A stretch of DNA of 64,000 nt from Desulfosarcina widdelii. Its GTDB lineage: Bacteria > Desulfobacterota > Desulfobacteria > Desulfobacterales > Desulfosarcinaceae. Made by a program: the position numbers and the translations under genes. The notes below the pieces were generated by a model that was not told the DNA's origin, ran no database searches, and worked only from the letters and a program-made list of their open reading frames with translations. Positions 42,001 to 48,856 of this stretch are shown in pieces (position 1 is the first letter of the stretch; every line of letters begins with the position of its first letter). The stretch lies in assembly GCF_009688965.1 (NCBI RefSeq), contig NZ_AP021875.1, positions 1,612,001 through 1,676,000 of the forward strand. The letters run 5' to 3'.

Positions 42001-42984
42001 TTATCCGCCCTCTTTTAATTTCTCGATGGCTTCGCGGGCGGCTTCCTGCATTTCCTCGTCATCGTCTCCGGCAGCCACACCTTCCAGAAACGGCAGGGCC
42101 GTTTGGTTGCCCGACTCGCCCAGAACATGCAGCAGATCGCCTTTGACCATGTCGTCCACCTTCTCGAAAAGAGCGGTCAGCGGCTCGACGATTTCTTTGG
42201 CCAGCCCGGCGTCCACTTCGGCCAGGGATTCGAAAGCCACCATGGCCCCCAGGCGCACGGACCAGCGGGGATGGGCCAGAAGATCGATAAAAGCACCGAA
42301 AATCTTACCACGCTGGCTCATCATGCGGGCCACGCCCTCGGCGTCCCCCTCTTCGATCATGCTCCGCAGCGCGTCGGCGCCCAGATTGGCCGGATCGCGG
42401 TCCAGCATCAGGGTCACCAGTTCGGCGGCATCCACACTGCCGGTCCAGCGGAACTGACCGTCCAGGATTACCGTGGGTGCAGCGCTGACCTTGTCTTTCA
42501 CGGCGGCATCGGGGAACAGTTCGCCGTCGATGACCGTCACCCGCACCTGTTCGCTTACGGCCGCCAGACCCAGCAGGAGCGACACCACATTGGGGCAATG
42601 CGGGCAAAACGGCGTAACGTAAACCTTGACCAATGCCGGCAAGGTCAGCTGCGCCAGTCGCTCGCGCACCTCCGCGGAAACGCGGTCCGAAAAGGCATCG
42701 GCATCAGCCAACAATTCCAGAAATGGCTCTAGTTCCCGATCATGCGGAATGGCCTGGTAGGTCACCCGGCTGCCGACCAGCAGGCTGGGAAGCGTAACCG
42801 GTGCATCACCGTCTTTCTTTGCATTAACGCATGGGGCCAGGTCAGCCATCATGCCGGCAAAATCCTTGAAGGCTTCATCCATGGCATCGCCGGTGGTGGT
42901 GTAACGAAGGGGAATGTCTGCATCCCGTCCTTTTCCCCACTTACGGATCCGATCCTTTGCCTGCTCAGTTATCCTTTCTGTCAT
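42001..42984 (-). CDS. Thioredoxin-fold disulfide protein with C-terminal HEAT repeats
   Basis: A 327-residue protein. Residues 1-115 form a first, cysteine-poor thioredoxin-like half (LPSLLVGSRVTYQAIPHDRE). Residues 115-210 form a second half with the active-site-like PFCPHCP (C127, C130) and APTVILDGQ with the cis-proline. This tandem order resembles the AhpF N-terminal domain and hyperthermophile PDI. Residues about 225-325 are HEAT-like helical repeats (LLAHPRWSVRLGAMVAFESL). The fusion suggests a redox protein that docks onto partners through the HEAT region. It ends seven bases from the adenylyltransferase stop. Confidence 0.8.
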   Translation of the reverse strand: MTERITEQAKDRIRKWGKGRDADIPLRYTTTGDAMDEAFKDFAGMMADLAPCVNAKKDGDAPVTLPSLLVGSRVTYQAIPHDRELEPFLELLADADAFSDRVSAEVRERLAQLTLPALVKVYVTPFCPHCPNVVSLLLGLAAVSEQVRVTVIDGELFPDAAVKDKVSAAPTVILDGQFRWTGSVDAAELVTLMLDRDPANLGADALRSMIEEGDAEGVARMMSQRGKIFGAFIDLLAHPRWSVRLGAMVAFESLAEVDAGLAKEIVEPLTALFEKVDDMVKGDLLHVLGESGNQTALPFLEGVAAGDDDEEMQEAAREAIEKLKEGG

Positions 42985-42985
42985 G

Positions 42986-43441
42986 TCACCTTTCCCGTTT
43001 ACCGAAACTGAATCGATCCCGTAATAGACGTAAGGTGGCCGGATTGACCTTCAGGTGCGGTAGCTCGTCCTGCACCACCCAGCGGGCATCGGCGGCGTCG
43101 TCCGCAGCCCGGGGCGTTCCGCTGACATAATCAGCATCCAGATCCACGATAACGTAATGGTATTGGACGATGCCCCGCTCGTCTTGCTGAATGGTATCGA
43201 AAACCAGCACCGGTTCGCCGGCGCGGATGACCACCCCGGTCTCTTCCAGTACCTCGCGCTCGGCCGCCTCCTGAAGGGTCTCCCCCAGGCGGACGCTGCC
43301 GCCCGGTATGGCCCACATGCCCTGGGCCGGCGCCTTTGCCCGCTGCACAAGCAGGACGGCGTCGTCTTTGAAAACCACTGCGCCAACCGCCGGACGGGGT
43401 GTATCGGGGTAACTTCCGCCTGCTTCCGGATCACATTTCAT
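42986..43441 (-). CDS. NUDIX hydrolase
   Basis: From the ATG at 43441 (AAGGAAA upstream) a 151-residue protein with a full NUDIX box: GGSVRLGETLQEAAEREVLE, then ETGV, matching Gx5Ex7REUxEExGU. VGAVVFKDDAVLLVQRAKAP precedes it. The closest style is ADP-ribose pyrophosphatase-like MutT proteins, but substrate is not predictable. The frame stays open for 82 codons upstream without conserved character. Its stop overlaps or abuts the thioredoxin/HEAT gene start, so they are probably co-transcribed. Confidence 0.88.
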   Translation of the reverse strand: MKCDPEAGGSYPDTPRPAVGAVVFKDDAVLLVQRAKAPAQGMWAIPGGSVRLGETLQEAAEREVLEETGVVIRAGEPVLVFDTIQQDERGIVQYHYVIVDLDADYVSGTPRAADDAADARWVVQDELPHLKVNPATLRLLRDRFSFGKRER

Positions 43442-43833
43442 GGGATCAATATTTCCTTGTAACGTCACCAGGTACCGTTGGCAGTGTCCGTCCAGAAATA
43501 GGAAAATTTGGTCGAGATCAAGGCGCACGACCAATTTTAGCTCTGGTTTTACCACAGGTGCCCGAAGGAAATGCCCTTGGGGTGCATATGGTTGATATTT
43601 CGAGGATAAAATTTTTCGTGCAACAAAGATATCGGCCAAGGGTGAAATTGGCTTGGCCATTTCTGGATGGTCACTAGGTATCACCATTTCCTGATGGCTT
43701 CAATTTGAATTTGCTCCAACCGCCATGGGGGATCATTGACGCTCCGGATATTTTCTGATAGCTGCAACAGCGTCCCACGCGATGCATGTAGGCTGTGAGA
43801 CATCATCGGATTCTTAACCGGGTGAAAGGCCAT
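43442..43833. other. Intergenic region between divergent NUDIX gene and acyl-CoA dehydrogenase
   Basis: No credible gene was found. The minus-strand NUDIX frame remains open through most of it, but lacks ribosome sites and recognisable sequence. It must contain the promoter of the acd-etf unit, and would be the natural place for an operator if the EtfA-XRE-cupin protein regulates its own operon. I did not find a clear inverted repeat. Confidence 0.4.
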
Positions 43834-44976
43834 ATGGACCAACTGCTGGAAGAAAAACACCGTATTGTGCGTCAGTCGGTGCGCCGTTTCTGTGAACGGG
43901 AGTTGCGGCCCATTGCCGCCCAGATCGACCAGGAAGCTCGGTTCCCTTGGGAAGTGGTCGAAAAGATGGGCAAGCTGGGCTATTTTGGGATTCAGGCTTC
44001 GAAAGAATTGGGTGGCGCGGGCCTGGATGCCGTCAGCTATGCCATCATCGTCGAGGAGATTTCGCGGGTCAGTGCCGCCATCGGTCTTTGCGTCACCGTT
44101 CACAACTCCGTGGCCCTTTACCCCATCTTGGCCTTCGGCAATCCAGAACAGATCGAACGCTGGGTTCCGCCTCTGGCCCGGGGAGAAAAAATCGGCGCTT
44201 TCTGCCTGACCGAACCCAATGCGGGCTCGGATGCCGGGGGTATTGAATCGACGGCCATCGTCGACGGTGACAATTACGTGGTCAACGCCAACAAGGTGTT
44301 CGTGACCAACGGGGGTGTGGCCGACATCTGCCTGATTTTCTGCCGGACCGATCCGGCCGCCGGGCATCGGGGCATCAGCGTCGTGGTGGCCGAACGCGGC
44401 GCGGCCGGTTTTGTGGTGGGCGACCTGGAAGATCTTTGCGGAATGCGGGCCAATCCGGTCAGTTCCATACGCCTTACCGACTGCCGTATCCCGTCGGGAA
44501 ACCTTTTGGCCAAAGAAGGCATGGGGCTGAAAATCGGCTTGGCCGCTTTGGACACGGGTCGCATGGGCATCGGCGCCCAAGCGGTGGGGATCGCCCATGC
44601 GGCACTGGAGGAGGCGGTCCGTTACGCTCGGCAGCGCCAGCAGTTCAAAGTCCCCATCGAACGCCATCAGGCCATCCAGACCATGATCGCCGACATGGCC
44701 ACCCAGGTGGACGCCGCCAGGCTGATGGTTTACCGGGCGGCAACCCTCAAAGAGCGGAGCCTGCCCTTTACCAAAGCGTCGGCCATGGCCAAGCTGTTCG
44801 CCTCCGAGGCGGCTGACCGGGTCACGGACCTGGCCGTTCAGATCCACGGCGGCTACGGGTACAGCAAGGCCTACCCGGTGGAACGCTACTACCGCGATGC
44901 CCGCGTAACCCGTATTTATGAAGGCACTTCAGAAATCCATCGCATGGTCATTGCCAAAAGCGTGATGGACGAATAG
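43834..44976 (+). CDS. Acyl-CoA dehydrogenase
   Basis: A 380-residue flavoenzyme that introduces the trans-2 double bond in acyl-CoA and passes electrons to ETF. The ATG at 43834 has GGTGAAAGG upstream; an earlier GTG at 43795 is less likely. Signature motifs are [16 protein letters not shown], ITxxVTNGG-like [36 protein letters not shown] and [16 protein letters not shown] with the catalytic glutamate. Family members with this profile act on short-chain or branched acyl-CoA. The direct link to etfB and an etfA fusion argues that the three form one electron-transfer unit. Confidence 0.93.
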
Positions 44977-44993: not shown

Positions 44994-45764
44994 TTGCACA
45001 TTGTCGTCTGCATCAAATCCGTGGTTGTCGAGGCCCCCAAAGGAAAAATCATACGAACGCCCGATAAGTGCGCCCTCAACCCCTTCGACCGGCCGGTTCT
45101 GGAGATCGCCCTGCAACTGAAGGCCGCCCAAGGCGGGTCGGTTACCGTCCTTTCCATGGGACCGCCCAGCGCTGAAGCCAGCCTGCGAGAAGCCATGGCC
45201 GCAGGGGCGGACCGGGCCTTGCTTCTCTGCGACCCGGCGCTGGCCGGTGCGGATACCCTGGCCACTGCGACCGCCCTGTGTGCCGGAATCGGCAGCCTGG
45301 CTCCTTTCGATCTGGTGCTTTTCGGAACTCGCACCTCGGACAGCGACACCGGTCAGGTCGGCCCCCAGACGGCGGTGCTGCTGGACCTTCCCATGGTTTC
45401 CGGGGCCAGGCAGATCGAGGTGGAGGCTAACACCCTCACGGTCTCGCGCGATCTGGACGGCATCCTGGAGACCTACGCGCTGGACATGCCGGCGGCGCTC
45501 ACCATTCATCCGTCGGCGTCCACACCGAGAGATCCGGAACTGGGCAAGATTGTCGAGGCTTTTGACGAAAAAACCGTAGAATCTATTACCATCGGCCAAT
45601 TGGGACTGGAGCCGGCGCAGGTGGGCGATGCCGGATCCCCCACGCGGGTGCTGTCCATGAAGACCGTAACCCGAAAGAGAACATGCCAATGGATCGAAGG
45701 GACCTCGGACGCCCAAGCCGATGCCCTGGTCAAAAAACTGGTAGAGGCGGGGAAAATCGGCTGA
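44994..45764 (+). CDS. etfB: Electron transfer flavoprotein, beta subunit
   Basis: The 256-residue EtfB starts at a TTG (LHIVVCIKSVV) behind AAAGGAA, with no in-frame ATG nearby. Family motifs are NPFDRPVLEIALQLK, VTVLSMGPPSAEASLREAMAAGAD, GTRTSDSDTGQVGPQTAVLL and the C-terminal SMKTVTRKR-like region. EtfB carries AMP or a second FAD and docks with the dehydrogenase. The sequence alone does not tell whether this ETF is bifurcating. It sits 17 bases after acd and 54 before the etfA fusion. Confidence 0.93.
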   Translation: MHIVVCIKSVVVEAPKGKIIRTPDKCALNPFDRPVLEIALQLKAAQGGSVTVLSMGPPSAEASLREAMAAGADRALLLCDPALAGADTLATATALCAGIGSLAPFDLVLFGTRTSDSDTGQVGPQTAVLLDLPMVSGARQIEVEANTLTVSRDLDGILETYALDMPAALTIHPSASTPRDPELGKIVEAFDEKTVESITIGQLGLEPAQVGDAGSPTRVLSMKTVTRKRTCQWIEGTSDAQADALVKKLVEAGKIG

Positions 45765-45818: not shown

Positions 45819-47486
45819 GTGAACCATACCAATTTTTCAACCGACAACCGAGAGATAACTTTGGACGCCGCATCATCCGGCCAAATCTGGGTATTCGGAG
45901 ACCTGCGCAGCCGACAATTGCTGGACACCAGCCTCAAGGTTCTGGCCAAAGCCTCGGCCCTGGCCGAAAAAACCGGGGACCGGGTGGTCCTGTTCATACT
46001 GACGCCCGGGAAGAAAAGCCTTATGACTGTTTCGGGAGACGACGCCTGCACCGTTGAAGGTTCCGTGGAAGAAAAGGCTTTTGCCTGGGGGGCTAATGCG
46101 GTCTACTACTTCGAAAACAAATGCTTTGCCACCCCATCGCCCCATCTTTTCGCCGATGCCCTGAATCCCATACTCAAACAGCACCGCCCCCGACTGGTGG
46201 CATTCCCCCTTACCGACTTCGGCCGCGAACTGGCGGCCAGGACCGCCGCCGCCGCCCGTGCCGGCCTGATCGCCGACTGCGTGGAACTCCTGCCGGGTAA
46301 AAACGGCAGCGTGGTGGGACTCTGCCCGGCCTGGGGGGGAGAAATCATGTCCGAAATCACCTTTGCTCCCGGCTACGAAATGGGATTCGCCACCATACAG
46401 CCCCATGGAGCGGGCATCAAGAACGAGACCGCCTGTAAAGGTGAGGTGGTCCACGAAGCCGTCGAAGATCTCCCTGGAAAAAAAGCCATCCGGTTGCTCT
46501 CTTCGCAATGGTCGCCTCCCGCCGGAGCCGATCTGGAAAACGCCGACACCGTGGTCGTCGGAGGGGCCGGATTGGCAAGCATGGAGAATTTCGGACTGGT
46601 TCGACAGTTGGCTGCCGCGCTGTCCGGACAGGTGGGGGCGACCCGGCCGCCGGTGCTCAACCACTGGGCGGCCGAAGACCGGCTCATCGGCCAGACCGGC
46701 AAAACCGTGCGCCCCAAGCTGCTGATCTCCGTGGGCACTTCGGGAGCGGTGCAATATACCGCAGGCATCACGGAGGCCGAAACCATCGTTGCCATCAACC
46801 GTGATCCGGCCGCACCCATCTTCCATTTGGCGGACATTGGCGTTGCCGCCGATGCGCCCACGTTCCTGCCGCTGCTGATCTCACGGGTCCGGCAGGCGGT
46901 CATGCGCCGGTTGGCCGATGACATTTGCACGGATGAAGCCGAGTCCTCCCGCAAAAGCGGATTCGGTGCAAAACTGAAGGTCCTGCGCGAGGCCCGGGGC
47001 TGGTCGCAGGAGCAGTTGGCCGAAGCTACCGGACAGACGCCGGACTTCATCGCTGGCGTCGAGGACGGCGAGTTCTCCCCGCCGGTGGCGTTTATCCTGC
47101 GGCTGGCCAATGCCTATGGCGTCGATCCGGGAACCTTCCTGCGCGATGAGGAAAAAACACAGATCCTCGACCAGCGAACCCGGGCCTATGTTAAACGCAC
47201 CCGCAACTACTCTTACCAAACATTGACGTCCGGTGCCGAAAACGACCACCTGCGCGCTTTCATGGTCACCATCGAACCGCACCACGATCATAAACCGGTG
47301 GCCTACAAACACGAAGGGGAAGAGTTCATTTTCGTCATGGAGGGGGATCTGGAATTCACCCTGGGAAGCAAAGTGCATAACCTGAAACCGGGCGAGTCCA
47401 TTCATTTTCATTCCAATATCCCCCACAAACTAAAAAGTCTGTCCGCCGAAATGACACGATGCCTGGTGATCCTCTATACGCTATAG
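45819..47486 (+). CDS. EtfA fused to XRE helix-turn-helix and cupin domains
   Basis: One uninterrupted 555-residue frame starts at GTG 45819. Residues ~21-366 are a complete ETF alpha subunit: VFGDLRSRQLLD, then the FAD-binding GQTGKTVRPKLLISVGT and AINRDPAAPIFHLADIG. A short linker leads to an XRE domain (384-441: LKVLREARGWSQEQLAEATG, then SPPVAFILRLANAYGVDP). A single-barrel cupin domain follows (470-553: HKPVAYKHEGEEFIFVMEGD, LKPGESIHFHSNIPHKL). Normal EtfA ends near residue 320-360, so this is a true C-terminal addition of an XRE-cupin regulator. It could couple redox or acyl metabolism to transcription. The usual histidine in SGAIQH is tyrosine here (Y313). Confidence 0.9.
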   Translation: MNHTNFSTDNREITLDAASSGQIWVFGDLRSRQLLDTSLKVLAKASALAEKTGDRVVLFILTPGKKSLMTVSGDDACTVEGSVEEKAFAWGANAVYYFENKCFATPSPHLFADALNPILKQHRPRLVAFPLTDFGRELAARTAAAARAGLIADCVELLPGKNGSVVGLCPAWGGEIMSEITFAPGYEMGFATIQPHGAGIKNETACKGEVVHEAVEDLPGKKAIRLLSSQWSPPAGADLENADTVVVGGAGLASMENFGLVRQLAAALSGQVGATRPPVLNHWAAEDRLIGQTGKTVRPKLLISVGTSGAVQYTAGITEAETIVAINRDPAAPIFHLADIGVAADAPTFLPLLISRVRQAVMRRLADDICTDEAESSRKSGFGAKLKVLREARGWSQEQLAEATGQTPDFIAGVEDGEFSPPVAFILRLANAYGVDPGTFLRDEEKTQILDQRTRAYVKRTRNYSYQTLTSGAENDHLRAFMVTIEPHHDHKPVAYKHEGEEFIFVMEGDLEFTLGSKVHNLKPGESIHFHSNIPHKLKSLSAEMTRCLVILYTL

Positions 47487-47525: not shown

Positions 47526-48008
47526 ATGACAGTTGGGATGAAAAGCGATCAAAAACGTCCCTATATCGGGGTGGCGGTCATCGTCGTCAGGCAGGGACGG
47601 GTGCTGCTGGGCAAACGTATCAATGCCCACGGTGCGGGAACCTGGCAGTTTCCCGGGGGCCACCTGGAGTACGGCGAATCCATCGAGGCCTGCGCTCGGC
47701 GCGAACTGATGGAAGAGACGGGTCTGTCCATCGAATCCTTACGCCTCGGACCGTTTACCAACGATTTTTTCGAAGCCGAGAAAAAGCACTACGTGACCCT
47801 TTTCGTCATCGCCGATCAGACCACGGGCGACCCCGTGGTGAGAGAGCCGGACAAATGCGAACGCTGGGGTTGGTTCCCCTGGGCGCAGCTTCCCAGCCCT
47901 CGTTTTCTTCCCATCGTCAATCTGCTCGAACAGAATTTCACCATCGACCCGCCGCAATCCGGTGAAGAAACCGCAAAAAAGCCGCGCAAAGGAGAAAGAT
48001 CCCCATGA
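47526..48008 (+). CDS. NUDIX hydrolase
   Basis: A 160-residue protein with the NUDIX box GGHLEYGESIEACARRELME followed by ETGL, preceded by VAVIVVRQGRVLLGKRINAHGA. FTNDFFEAEKKHYVTLFV and CERWGWFPW resemble the dCTP/8-oxo-dGTP pyrophosphatase (NudG/MutT-like) group. A cytosine-type substrate is possible but not established. An in-frame ATG at 47538 is an alternative start. It overlaps the downstream PHP gene by four bases and begins 39 bases after the etfA fusion, so it may share that transcript. Confidence 0.87.
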   Translation: MTVGMKSDQKRPYIGVAVIVVRQGRVLLGKRINAHGAGTWQFPGGHLEYGESIEACARRELMEETGLSIESLRLGPFTNDFFEAEKKHYVTLFVIADQTTGDPVVREPDKCERWGWFPWAQLPSPRFLPIVNLLEQNFTIDPPQSGEETAKKPRKGERSP

Positions 48009-48856
48009 CGAACGTCCCGTCCCCCGTTTCAGTCCATGGCGGCCACAGCGGGCAGTTCTGCTGCCACGCCAACAATTCCCTTGAGGAAATCGTGCGGGCC
48101 TACATCGATCTGGGCTATCCGTGGGTAGGAATCACCGAACACATGCCCCCCGCATCGGATGCCTATCTATACCCAGAGGAAAAGCAGGCCGGGCTCGATG
48201 CCGACGCCCTTATGGAGCGCTTCGCCGAGTATATGACCGTCTGCCGTAGTCTGCAGGCCAAATACGTGGACCGCATCGAAATCCTGGTGGGCTTCGAAAC
48301 CGAGTATTACGAGGGAAGCATAGACCTGGCCCGCAGACTGATCGGGCAATTTTCTCCTGACTACGTGGTGGGTTCCGTCCATCATGTCCAGGAGATCCCC
48401 TTCGACTACAGCCCGAAAAAATACCGGGAGGCGGCGGATCGCTGCGGTGGGCTGGACGAGTTGTACAACGCCTACTTCGATCAGCAGTTCGAGATGCTCC
48501 AGGCCTTGAAGCCCAATGTGGTCGGCCACCTGGATCTCATTCGCATTTACGATCCCGGATACAGCACTCGCCTGGTCAAACCGAACATCTGGGGAAAAAT
48601 CCTGAGGAATCTGGAGTTGGTCAGGCAACTGGGACTGATTCTGGACTTCAACCTGCGTCCGCTGTCAAAGGGGGAGAAAGAACCCTATCTGTCCGCCCCT
48701 ATATTGAAGCAGGCCATCGATATGGGAATCGACGTGGTTCCGGGCGACGATTCCCACGGAGTCGATACCATCGGCCGATACATGCCCACTGCCATCGAAA
48801 TGCTACAGGCGGCCGGGGCGCGGACCAACTGGCGCAGGCCCGCAGATCGGTCCTGA
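48005..48856 (+). CDS. Histidinol-phosphatase-like PHP family protein
   Basis: A 283-residue PHP-domain phosphatase of the HisK/YtvP-like type. Motifs are SVHGGHSGQFCCHA, GITEHMPP, LVGFETEYYEG, VVGSVHHVQEIPFD, VVGHLDLIRIYD and VVPGDDSHGVDTIG. Histidinol phosphatase is the usual function, giving histidine synthesis. Other phosphomonoesters are possible and no his genes are adjacent. Coupled to the NUDIX gene by ATGA. Confidence 0.85.
   Translation: MTNVPSPVSVHGGHSGQFCCHANNSLEEIVRAYIDLGYPWVGITEHMPPASDAYLYPEEKQAGLDADALMERFAEYMTVCRSLQAKYVDRIEILVGFETEYYEGSIDLARRLIGQFSPDYVVGSVHHVQEIPFDYSPKKYREAADRCGGLDELYNAYFDQQFEMLQALKPNVVGHLDLIRIYDPGYSTRLVKPNIWGKILRNLELVRQLGLILDFNLRPLSKGEKEPYLSAPILKQAIDMGIDVVPGDDSHGVDTIGRYMPTAIEMLQAAGARTNWRRPADRS

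Follow-up and report, generated by a model that had tools for sequence, protein, structure and literature searches.

A single gene of Desulfosarcina widdelii encodes an electron transfer flavoprotein (ETF) alpha subunit, EtfA, that continues into an XRE-type helix-turn-helix (HTH) and a cupin. It lies in a stretch of 64,000 nucleotides that was analysed as a whole (the window). We give about an even chance to the reading that the protein belongs to a dedicated, probably non-bifurcating ETF of a short-chain acyl-CoA dehydrogenase, and that its XRE-cupin tail is a ligand- or metal-binding accessory acting on the protein itself. The substrate of the partner dehydrogenase is probably C4.

Fused gene, operon and distribution

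The gene is one open frame of 555 codons with no internal stop. Two start codons are possible, GTG 45819, which is without a clear ribosome site, and TTG 45861, which has a better one (GAGAG ahead of the codon) and stands at about the level where many homologs start, so that the length of the protein, 555 or 541 residues, respectively, is uncertain. The features of the gene and its operon are as follows.

43736..43762, forward strand: probable promoter (TTGACG, spacing of 15, GATAGC), 71 bp before acd, the main conserved element near acd in Desulfosarcina
43834..44976, forward strand: acd, short-chain acyl-CoA dehydrogenase (SCAD/Bcd/AcrC-like; Pfam Acyl-CoA_dh N, M and C)
44994..45764, forward strand: etfB, ETF beta subunit (PF01012, 9e-38)
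45819..47486, forward strand: fused EtfA-XRE-cupin gene
45888..46466, forward strand: EtfA N-terminal domain, PF01012 (ETF), residues 24-216 (Pfam 1.5e-14)
46323..46325, forward strand: Cys169, at the position of the Arg required for bifurcation (T. maritima R140, RPxFGG), by alignment with 7koe_B
46530..46769, forward strand: EtfA FAD-binding domain, PF00766 (ETF_alpha), residues 238-317 (Pfam 1e-27)
46755..46757, forward strand: Tyr313, in place of the FAD-tuning His (SGAIQH), by alignment of the fused proteins
46929..46961, forward strand: short linker from the EtfA C-terminal helix (346-370) to HTH helix 1 (382), in the predicted structure
46962..47141, forward strand: XRE-type HTH, residues 382-441 (Pfam HTH_31/HTH_3)
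47037..47069, forward strand: recognition-helix segment TPDFIAGVEDG, residues 407-417, by comparison with standalone relatives
47262..47471, forward strand: Cupin_2 domain, residues 482-551 (Pfam 1.5e-15)

Every Pfam domain match in the fused protein exceeds the gathering cut-off (the HTH_31 and HTH_3 matches cover residues 382-438, at 4e-14 and 3e-10), and generic HTH repressors are the sole matches in PHROGs. An AlphaFold model built with 28 relatives (mean pLDDT 72.6, pTM 0.43, no inter-domain confidence) contains the EtfA, HTH and cupin folds, and Foldseek with this model retrieves EtfA structures (4kpu_A, 3.9e-28) and, separately, XRE-cupin structures (1y9q, 1.8e-12; HppE). EtfA and the HTH are 7-14 residues apart in the fused proteins listed. 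Pfam and Foldseek thus agree with the initial annotation, which had described a fusion of EtfA, XRE and cupin in one frame; it had also correctly placed the gene directly behind acd and etfB, both of which are directly upstream on the same strand. A literature search for electron transfer flavoproteins with a cupin, XRE or helix-turn-helix found nothing relevant, and within that literature the statement that no protein of this architecture has been characterised holds.

The start of acd was placed at ATG 43834 by homologs. The best solved relative of its product is 5ol2_C, the acyl-CoA dehydrogenase of the C. difficile Etf/butyryl-CoA dehydrogenase complex (1.6e-118), and its best NCBIfam match is AcrC, at 452 bits below the cut-off of 640. 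The solved structures nearest to EtfB are bifurcating-type EtfBs (5ol2_B, 4kpu_B, CarD). The order acd-etfB-fused gene is found in all 20 loci examined and, when strict spacing rules are applied, in 63 of another 74 loci that have sufficient upstream sequence; of the 11 loci that fail these rules 10 still have etfB, and acd is more distant in some. In one genome line (G307, locus L075) the order is thiolase, 3-hydroxybutyryl-CoA dehydrogenase (HBD), acd, etfB and the fused gene, which, for that line at least, connects the fused operon with C4 beta-oxidation. Around the operon, 42001-43687 (reverse strand) and 47526-48856 (forward strand) encode a thioredoxin/HEAT-repeat protein, two Nudix hydrolases and a HisJ-type PHP phosphatase. 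The thioredoxin/HEAT, Nudix and PHP neighbours are kept in several genomes of the genus, and beyond the genus the PHP gene is the sole one of them that was seen, near one locus (L067).

The fusion is present in 11 of the 13 genomes of the genus that were searched (D. widdelii included; one with an early stop), and it spans nearly the whole query in 21 of 60 relatives searched (one with an early stop). Another 21 fusions came from a sample of 395 genomes across the phylum; they belong to several families, with identity down to 37%. Nearly all of the best 80 loci in a scan of genome contigs hold the full-length fusion, save those at contig ends, and separate searches of Desulfobacterota recovered the same fusion in about 40 genomes. 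Isolates with the fusion include Desulfosarcina alkanivorans PL12, D. cetonica, Desulfatibacillum alkenivorans, Desulfatitalea alkaliphila, Desulfocicer vacuolatum, Desulfamplus magnetovallimortis and strain NaphS2. A few fused records are titled Nitrospirota, Myxococcota or Fibrobacterota and are placed among the rest in trees; these titles may reflect old names, mislabelling or transfer.

There is practically no chance that the gene arose by faulty assembly or binning, or that it is a neutral product of read-through without function. Isolated broken copies are all that speaks for this view, namely an early stop in the copy of G010 and a frameshift in that of G022, whereas the fusion occurs both in isolates and in metagenome-assembled genomes of independent projects and its tail is under strong purifying selection. 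The many independent fused copies rule out an assembly error. The initial annotation had considered that homologs might have a stop between EtfA and a separate XRE-cupin gene; what they have, in the genus and in many families, is the fusion. The G022 frameshift (L022/L109, G022:C6:675201-676818) lies inside the FAD domain, splits the gene into two abutting open frames and is either a sequencing error or decay.

In a tree of the XRE-cupin part the fused proteins stand together, save the fragment L023, and a set of standalone XRE-cupins is their sister. L023 is a contig-end fragment with 65% identity to the fused tails and is read, from its sequence, as a truncated fused gene. In the EtfA tree the fused proteins are on one side, save the long-branched L050. 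G368 has acd-etfB-etfA with no tail (L094), nested within the fused clade with a support of 100/97, which looks like a later loss of the tail. The simplest reading of these trees is one old fusion event with one nested loss: the tail would have been joined once, early, and would share ancestry with the standalone XRE-cupins of short-chain beta-oxidation clusters. The loss in G368 shows that the ETF operon can persist without the tail, and this tail-less operon of the fused clade (L094:5022-8105) is a natural control.

ETF half of the protein

By its domains and FAD-site residues the fused protein belongs to the EtfA class, and FAD binding and electron transfer are predicted. The FAD-site residues are kept in the fused proteins (Arg276 is R in 77/78 and Thr293 is T in 78/78). 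With the ETF alphas of acyl-CoA dehydrogenase complexes, such as those of Bcd-EtfAB from C. difficile (5ol2), EtfA of A. fermentans (4kpu), CarE (6fah) and AcrA of acryloyl-CoA reductase, it has in common both EtfA domains, the FAD-site Arg and Thr, and the adjoining etfB and SCAD-type dehydrogenase. Unlike them, it carries an XRE-cupin tail and has Cys, Ser or Val for the bifurcation Arg and Tyr or Phe for the FAD-tuning His; its partner EtfB also differs from those systems, with Ser for an invariant Gly and a deletion of six residues.

These replacements bear on electron bifurcation. T. maritima EtfABCX cannot bifurcate without Arg140 of its EtfA (PMC10734219), and the corresponding position is C, S or V in 78/78 fused proteins. 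The Gly at position 123 of A. fermentans EtfB is invariant in bifurcating EtfBs (PMC12630350); the window EtfB has Ser117 there, and the partner EtfBs mostly have Ser, with a few having Gly. In addition, the KQVPDT segment of EtfB is six residues shorter in the window and likewise across the main clade, and the motifs RTPD and GSPTRV stand at the positions of RxGV and GxxSPTxV. A bifurcating role is unlikely for this ETF, because the bifurcation Arg is gone and EtfB has both Ser for Gly and the KQVPDT deletion. Assignment to the bifurcating (group 2) ETFs is unsupported, with the alpha-subunit Arg and the invariant Gly of EtfB both replaced.

The His of SGAIQH, which raises the FAD potential (PMC12630350), is a common EtfA feature that is not strictly defining. 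Its position is Y in 75 and F in 3 of the 78 fused proteins, and Tyr also occurs in the unfused L095, L096 and L098. Because the replacement is common to unfused relatives, it does not remove the protein from the EtfA family, and Tyr-for-His was ruled out as a marker of the fusion.

XRE-cupin tail

The tail has the domain architecture of XRE-cupin proteins, an HTH_3-type domain and a Cupin_2 domain. The same order, HTH_3/HTH_31 and then Cupin_2, is found in the standalone XRE-cupin factors PuuR, PauR and ErfA and in 1y9q of V. cholerae, from all of which the tail differs by its position behind EtfA, by its acidic HTH and in that a local operator was not found. The net charge of the HTH is -3 in the window protein, with a mean of -1.9 in 43 fused proteins versus +2.9 in 14 standalone ones; net charge has little predictive power (the HTH of the fused L073 has +4) and, since the fused set is one clade, the shift counts as one evolutionary change, not many. 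The Lys/Arg of the recognition helix, present in 14/14 standalone proteins, is Ala in the window protein and mostly A, E or T in the fused proteins. The HTH therefore appears, on comparison of sequences, to be without the basic DNA-facing surface of its nearest standalone relatives. Its identity between genomes (190 pairs) is 0.53 in fused and 0.51 in standalone proteins, so the fused HTH is not decaying, and this equality together with a dN/dS of 0.11-0.22 rules out a decaying relic. Equal conservation would likewise be expected of an HTH that still binds DNA but has a different specificity.

The XRE-cupin factors studied in Pseudomonas are local repressors that bind palindromes adjoining their own gene (PMC7901475). 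Upstream of acd, alignments within Desulfosarcina and within Desulfatitalea contain a -35/-10-like hexamer pair and no conserved dyad; a consensus scan for promoters and terminators called nothing at the conserved promoter. Individual palindromes upstream of the fused operons are mostly at chance level, with none in common, and a palindromic Gibbs motif search of the regions ahead of these operons gave no clear excess over shuffles. A genus-level dyad, TTCAATTTGAAATTGAA, adjoins the divergent Nudix gene and is perfect only in L063; its window version is partial (43699-43715, 3 mismatches), and a pair of matches this good in 64 kb does not stand out clearly from chance (6/100 shuffles). With an HTH that seems to have no basic surface, and no dyad conserved upstream of acd in two genera, the regulation of its own operon that had been proposed for the protein finds no support in these comparisons, and the autoregulation reading is weakened.

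PutA is a flavoenzyme with a DNA-binding domain and a trigger enzyme. The fused protein resembles it in joining a redox flavoprotein to a DNA-binding-type fold and differs from it in the flavoprotein, in the HTH class, in the place of the HTH near the C-terminus with a cupin, and in that its sequence does not favour DNA binding.

The cupin has a metal triad, His498, Glu502 and His536, which aligns with the H-xxx-E...H of hydroxypropylphosphonate epoxidase (HppE, 1zz6). The equivalent three residues bind iron in HppE. The triad is kept in 86/86, 86/86 and 85/86 (one gap) of the fused proteins and in 38/38, 38/38 and 37/38 of the standalone proteins. The cupin thus falls in the 2-His-1-Glu metal-binding class, and metal binding is predicted. 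Because the triad is invariant, the earlier proposal of the cupin as a sensor is plausible as far as a ligand or metal is concerned. Within the genus dN/dS is 0.017-0.082 for the cupin, 0.109-0.221 for the HTH and 0.171-0.226 for EtfA; all parts are thus under purifying selection, and the cupin is the most constrained part of the fused protein, above EtfA. HppE likewise combines an XRE-like domain with a cupin and is not a transcription factor; unlike the fused protein, it is a stand-alone enzyme with no EtfA, and identity is about 20%.

Standalone relatives and the role of the tail

The nearest standalone XRE-cupin relatives are in the same phylum, at about 42-46% identity (about 42% to the fused tail in the window genome). 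In at least five genomes (L081, L084, L086, L087, L093 and others) a standalone gene is located between genes for 3-hydroxybutyryl-CoA dehydrogenase and acyl-CoA dehydrogenase, and some of these clusters add a fused isobutyryl-CoA mutase, IcmF, and an acetyl-CoA acetyltransferase (thiolase). This location suggests that the standalone protein is likely to be a regulator of C4/isobutyryl-CoA metabolism. A motif upstream of the standalone genes, ATTCAAGGATTCCAAA, was dropped; it appears to be a conserved stretch of coding sequence from the 3' end of the HBD gene. A standalone relative with at least 36% identity co-occurs in 31 of 36 fusion genomes checked. Among the matches listed, none at this level is found in G007, G011, G026, G264 and G307, of which G007 and G011 are incomplete genomes. 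A second XRE-cupin fusion, of 432-435 aa, exists in at least five Desulfobacterota genomes (L218:3347-4645, reverse strand; L220:2407-3705, L221:2260-3564, L222:2253-3560 and L223:2058-3365, forward strand); its N-terminal ~245 residues appear KaiC/RecA-like in L218 (PF06745, 4e-5, below the cut-off).

A trigger enzyme seems unlikely; here the fused EtfA would bind DNA by its HTH, repressing its own operon or related ones, and would be switched by the ligand of the cupin or by the redox state of the flavin. The HTH fold is intact and under selection, the Pseudomonas XRE-cupin factors studied are local repressors (PMC7901475), and in G264 and G307 the fused gene occupies the place that a standalone regulator has in other genomes, with no close standalone copy among the matches listed. 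However, the HTH is acidic and has lost the recognition-helix Lys/Arg, alignments within two genera contain no conserved operator dyad upstream, a separate standalone relative (at least 36% identity) is retained in 31 of the 36 genomes checked, and an ETF subunit, being usually abundant, would probably give an awkward repressor dose. The joint presence of both forms in those 31 genomes, their common cupin and triad, and the same pathway neighbourhood are the grounds for another possibility, itself quite improbable: the tail would dimerise with the genome's own standalone XRE-cupin paralogue, titrating or tuning it as an anti-repressor, so that ETF abundance or state would be linked to expression of the C4 beta-oxidation cluster. 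Yet the two are only about 42% identical in the window genome, whose standalone paralogue is at G000:C1:5321666-5322196, and co-occurrence is expected anyway because standalone copies are common also in genomes without the fusion.

It is highly improbable that the cupin is a metal enzyme domain of the HppE type acting on a product or inhibitor of the dehydrogenase, even though the HppE-type triad is invariant and the structure search ranks HppE with the best matches to the tail. The triad is equally kept in standalone relatives and is therefore not specific to the fusion, and HppE uses an oxidant while many of these fusion hosts are strict anaerobes.

Under the favoured reading, that of an accessory tail on a dedicated ETF, the cupin would bind a metal and a small pathway ligand, and the tail would act via the short linker on the mobile FAD domain and probably also by cupin-cupin dimerisation. 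The effect would be altered assembly of the ETF/dehydrogenase complex or altered docking of the FAD domain, with the HTH serving as a packing or protein-contact domain, not as a DNA binder. A built-in reporter, an ETF whose tail would form pairs with the genome's standalone repressor or would itself bind DNA in one of its states, appears distinctly unlikely; if it were true, transcription would be informed of the flux or redox state of short-chain beta-oxidation.

ETFs are viewed as passive electron shuttles, and here a lineage across much of Desulfobacterota keeps a regulator-derived tail on one, with the cupin of that tail better conserved than the electron-carrying part. There are signs in these sequences that the tail is no longer an ordinary DNA-binding switch in many sulfate-reducing and related bacteria. 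An XRE-cupin pair is not always a DNA-binding switch, so that names assigned automatically to proteins of this type may be misleading. Isolates such as Desulfosarcina alkanivorans, Desulfatibacillum alkenivorans and Desulfocicer vacuolatum would allow a test of whether a small molecule or metal directly controls an ETF.
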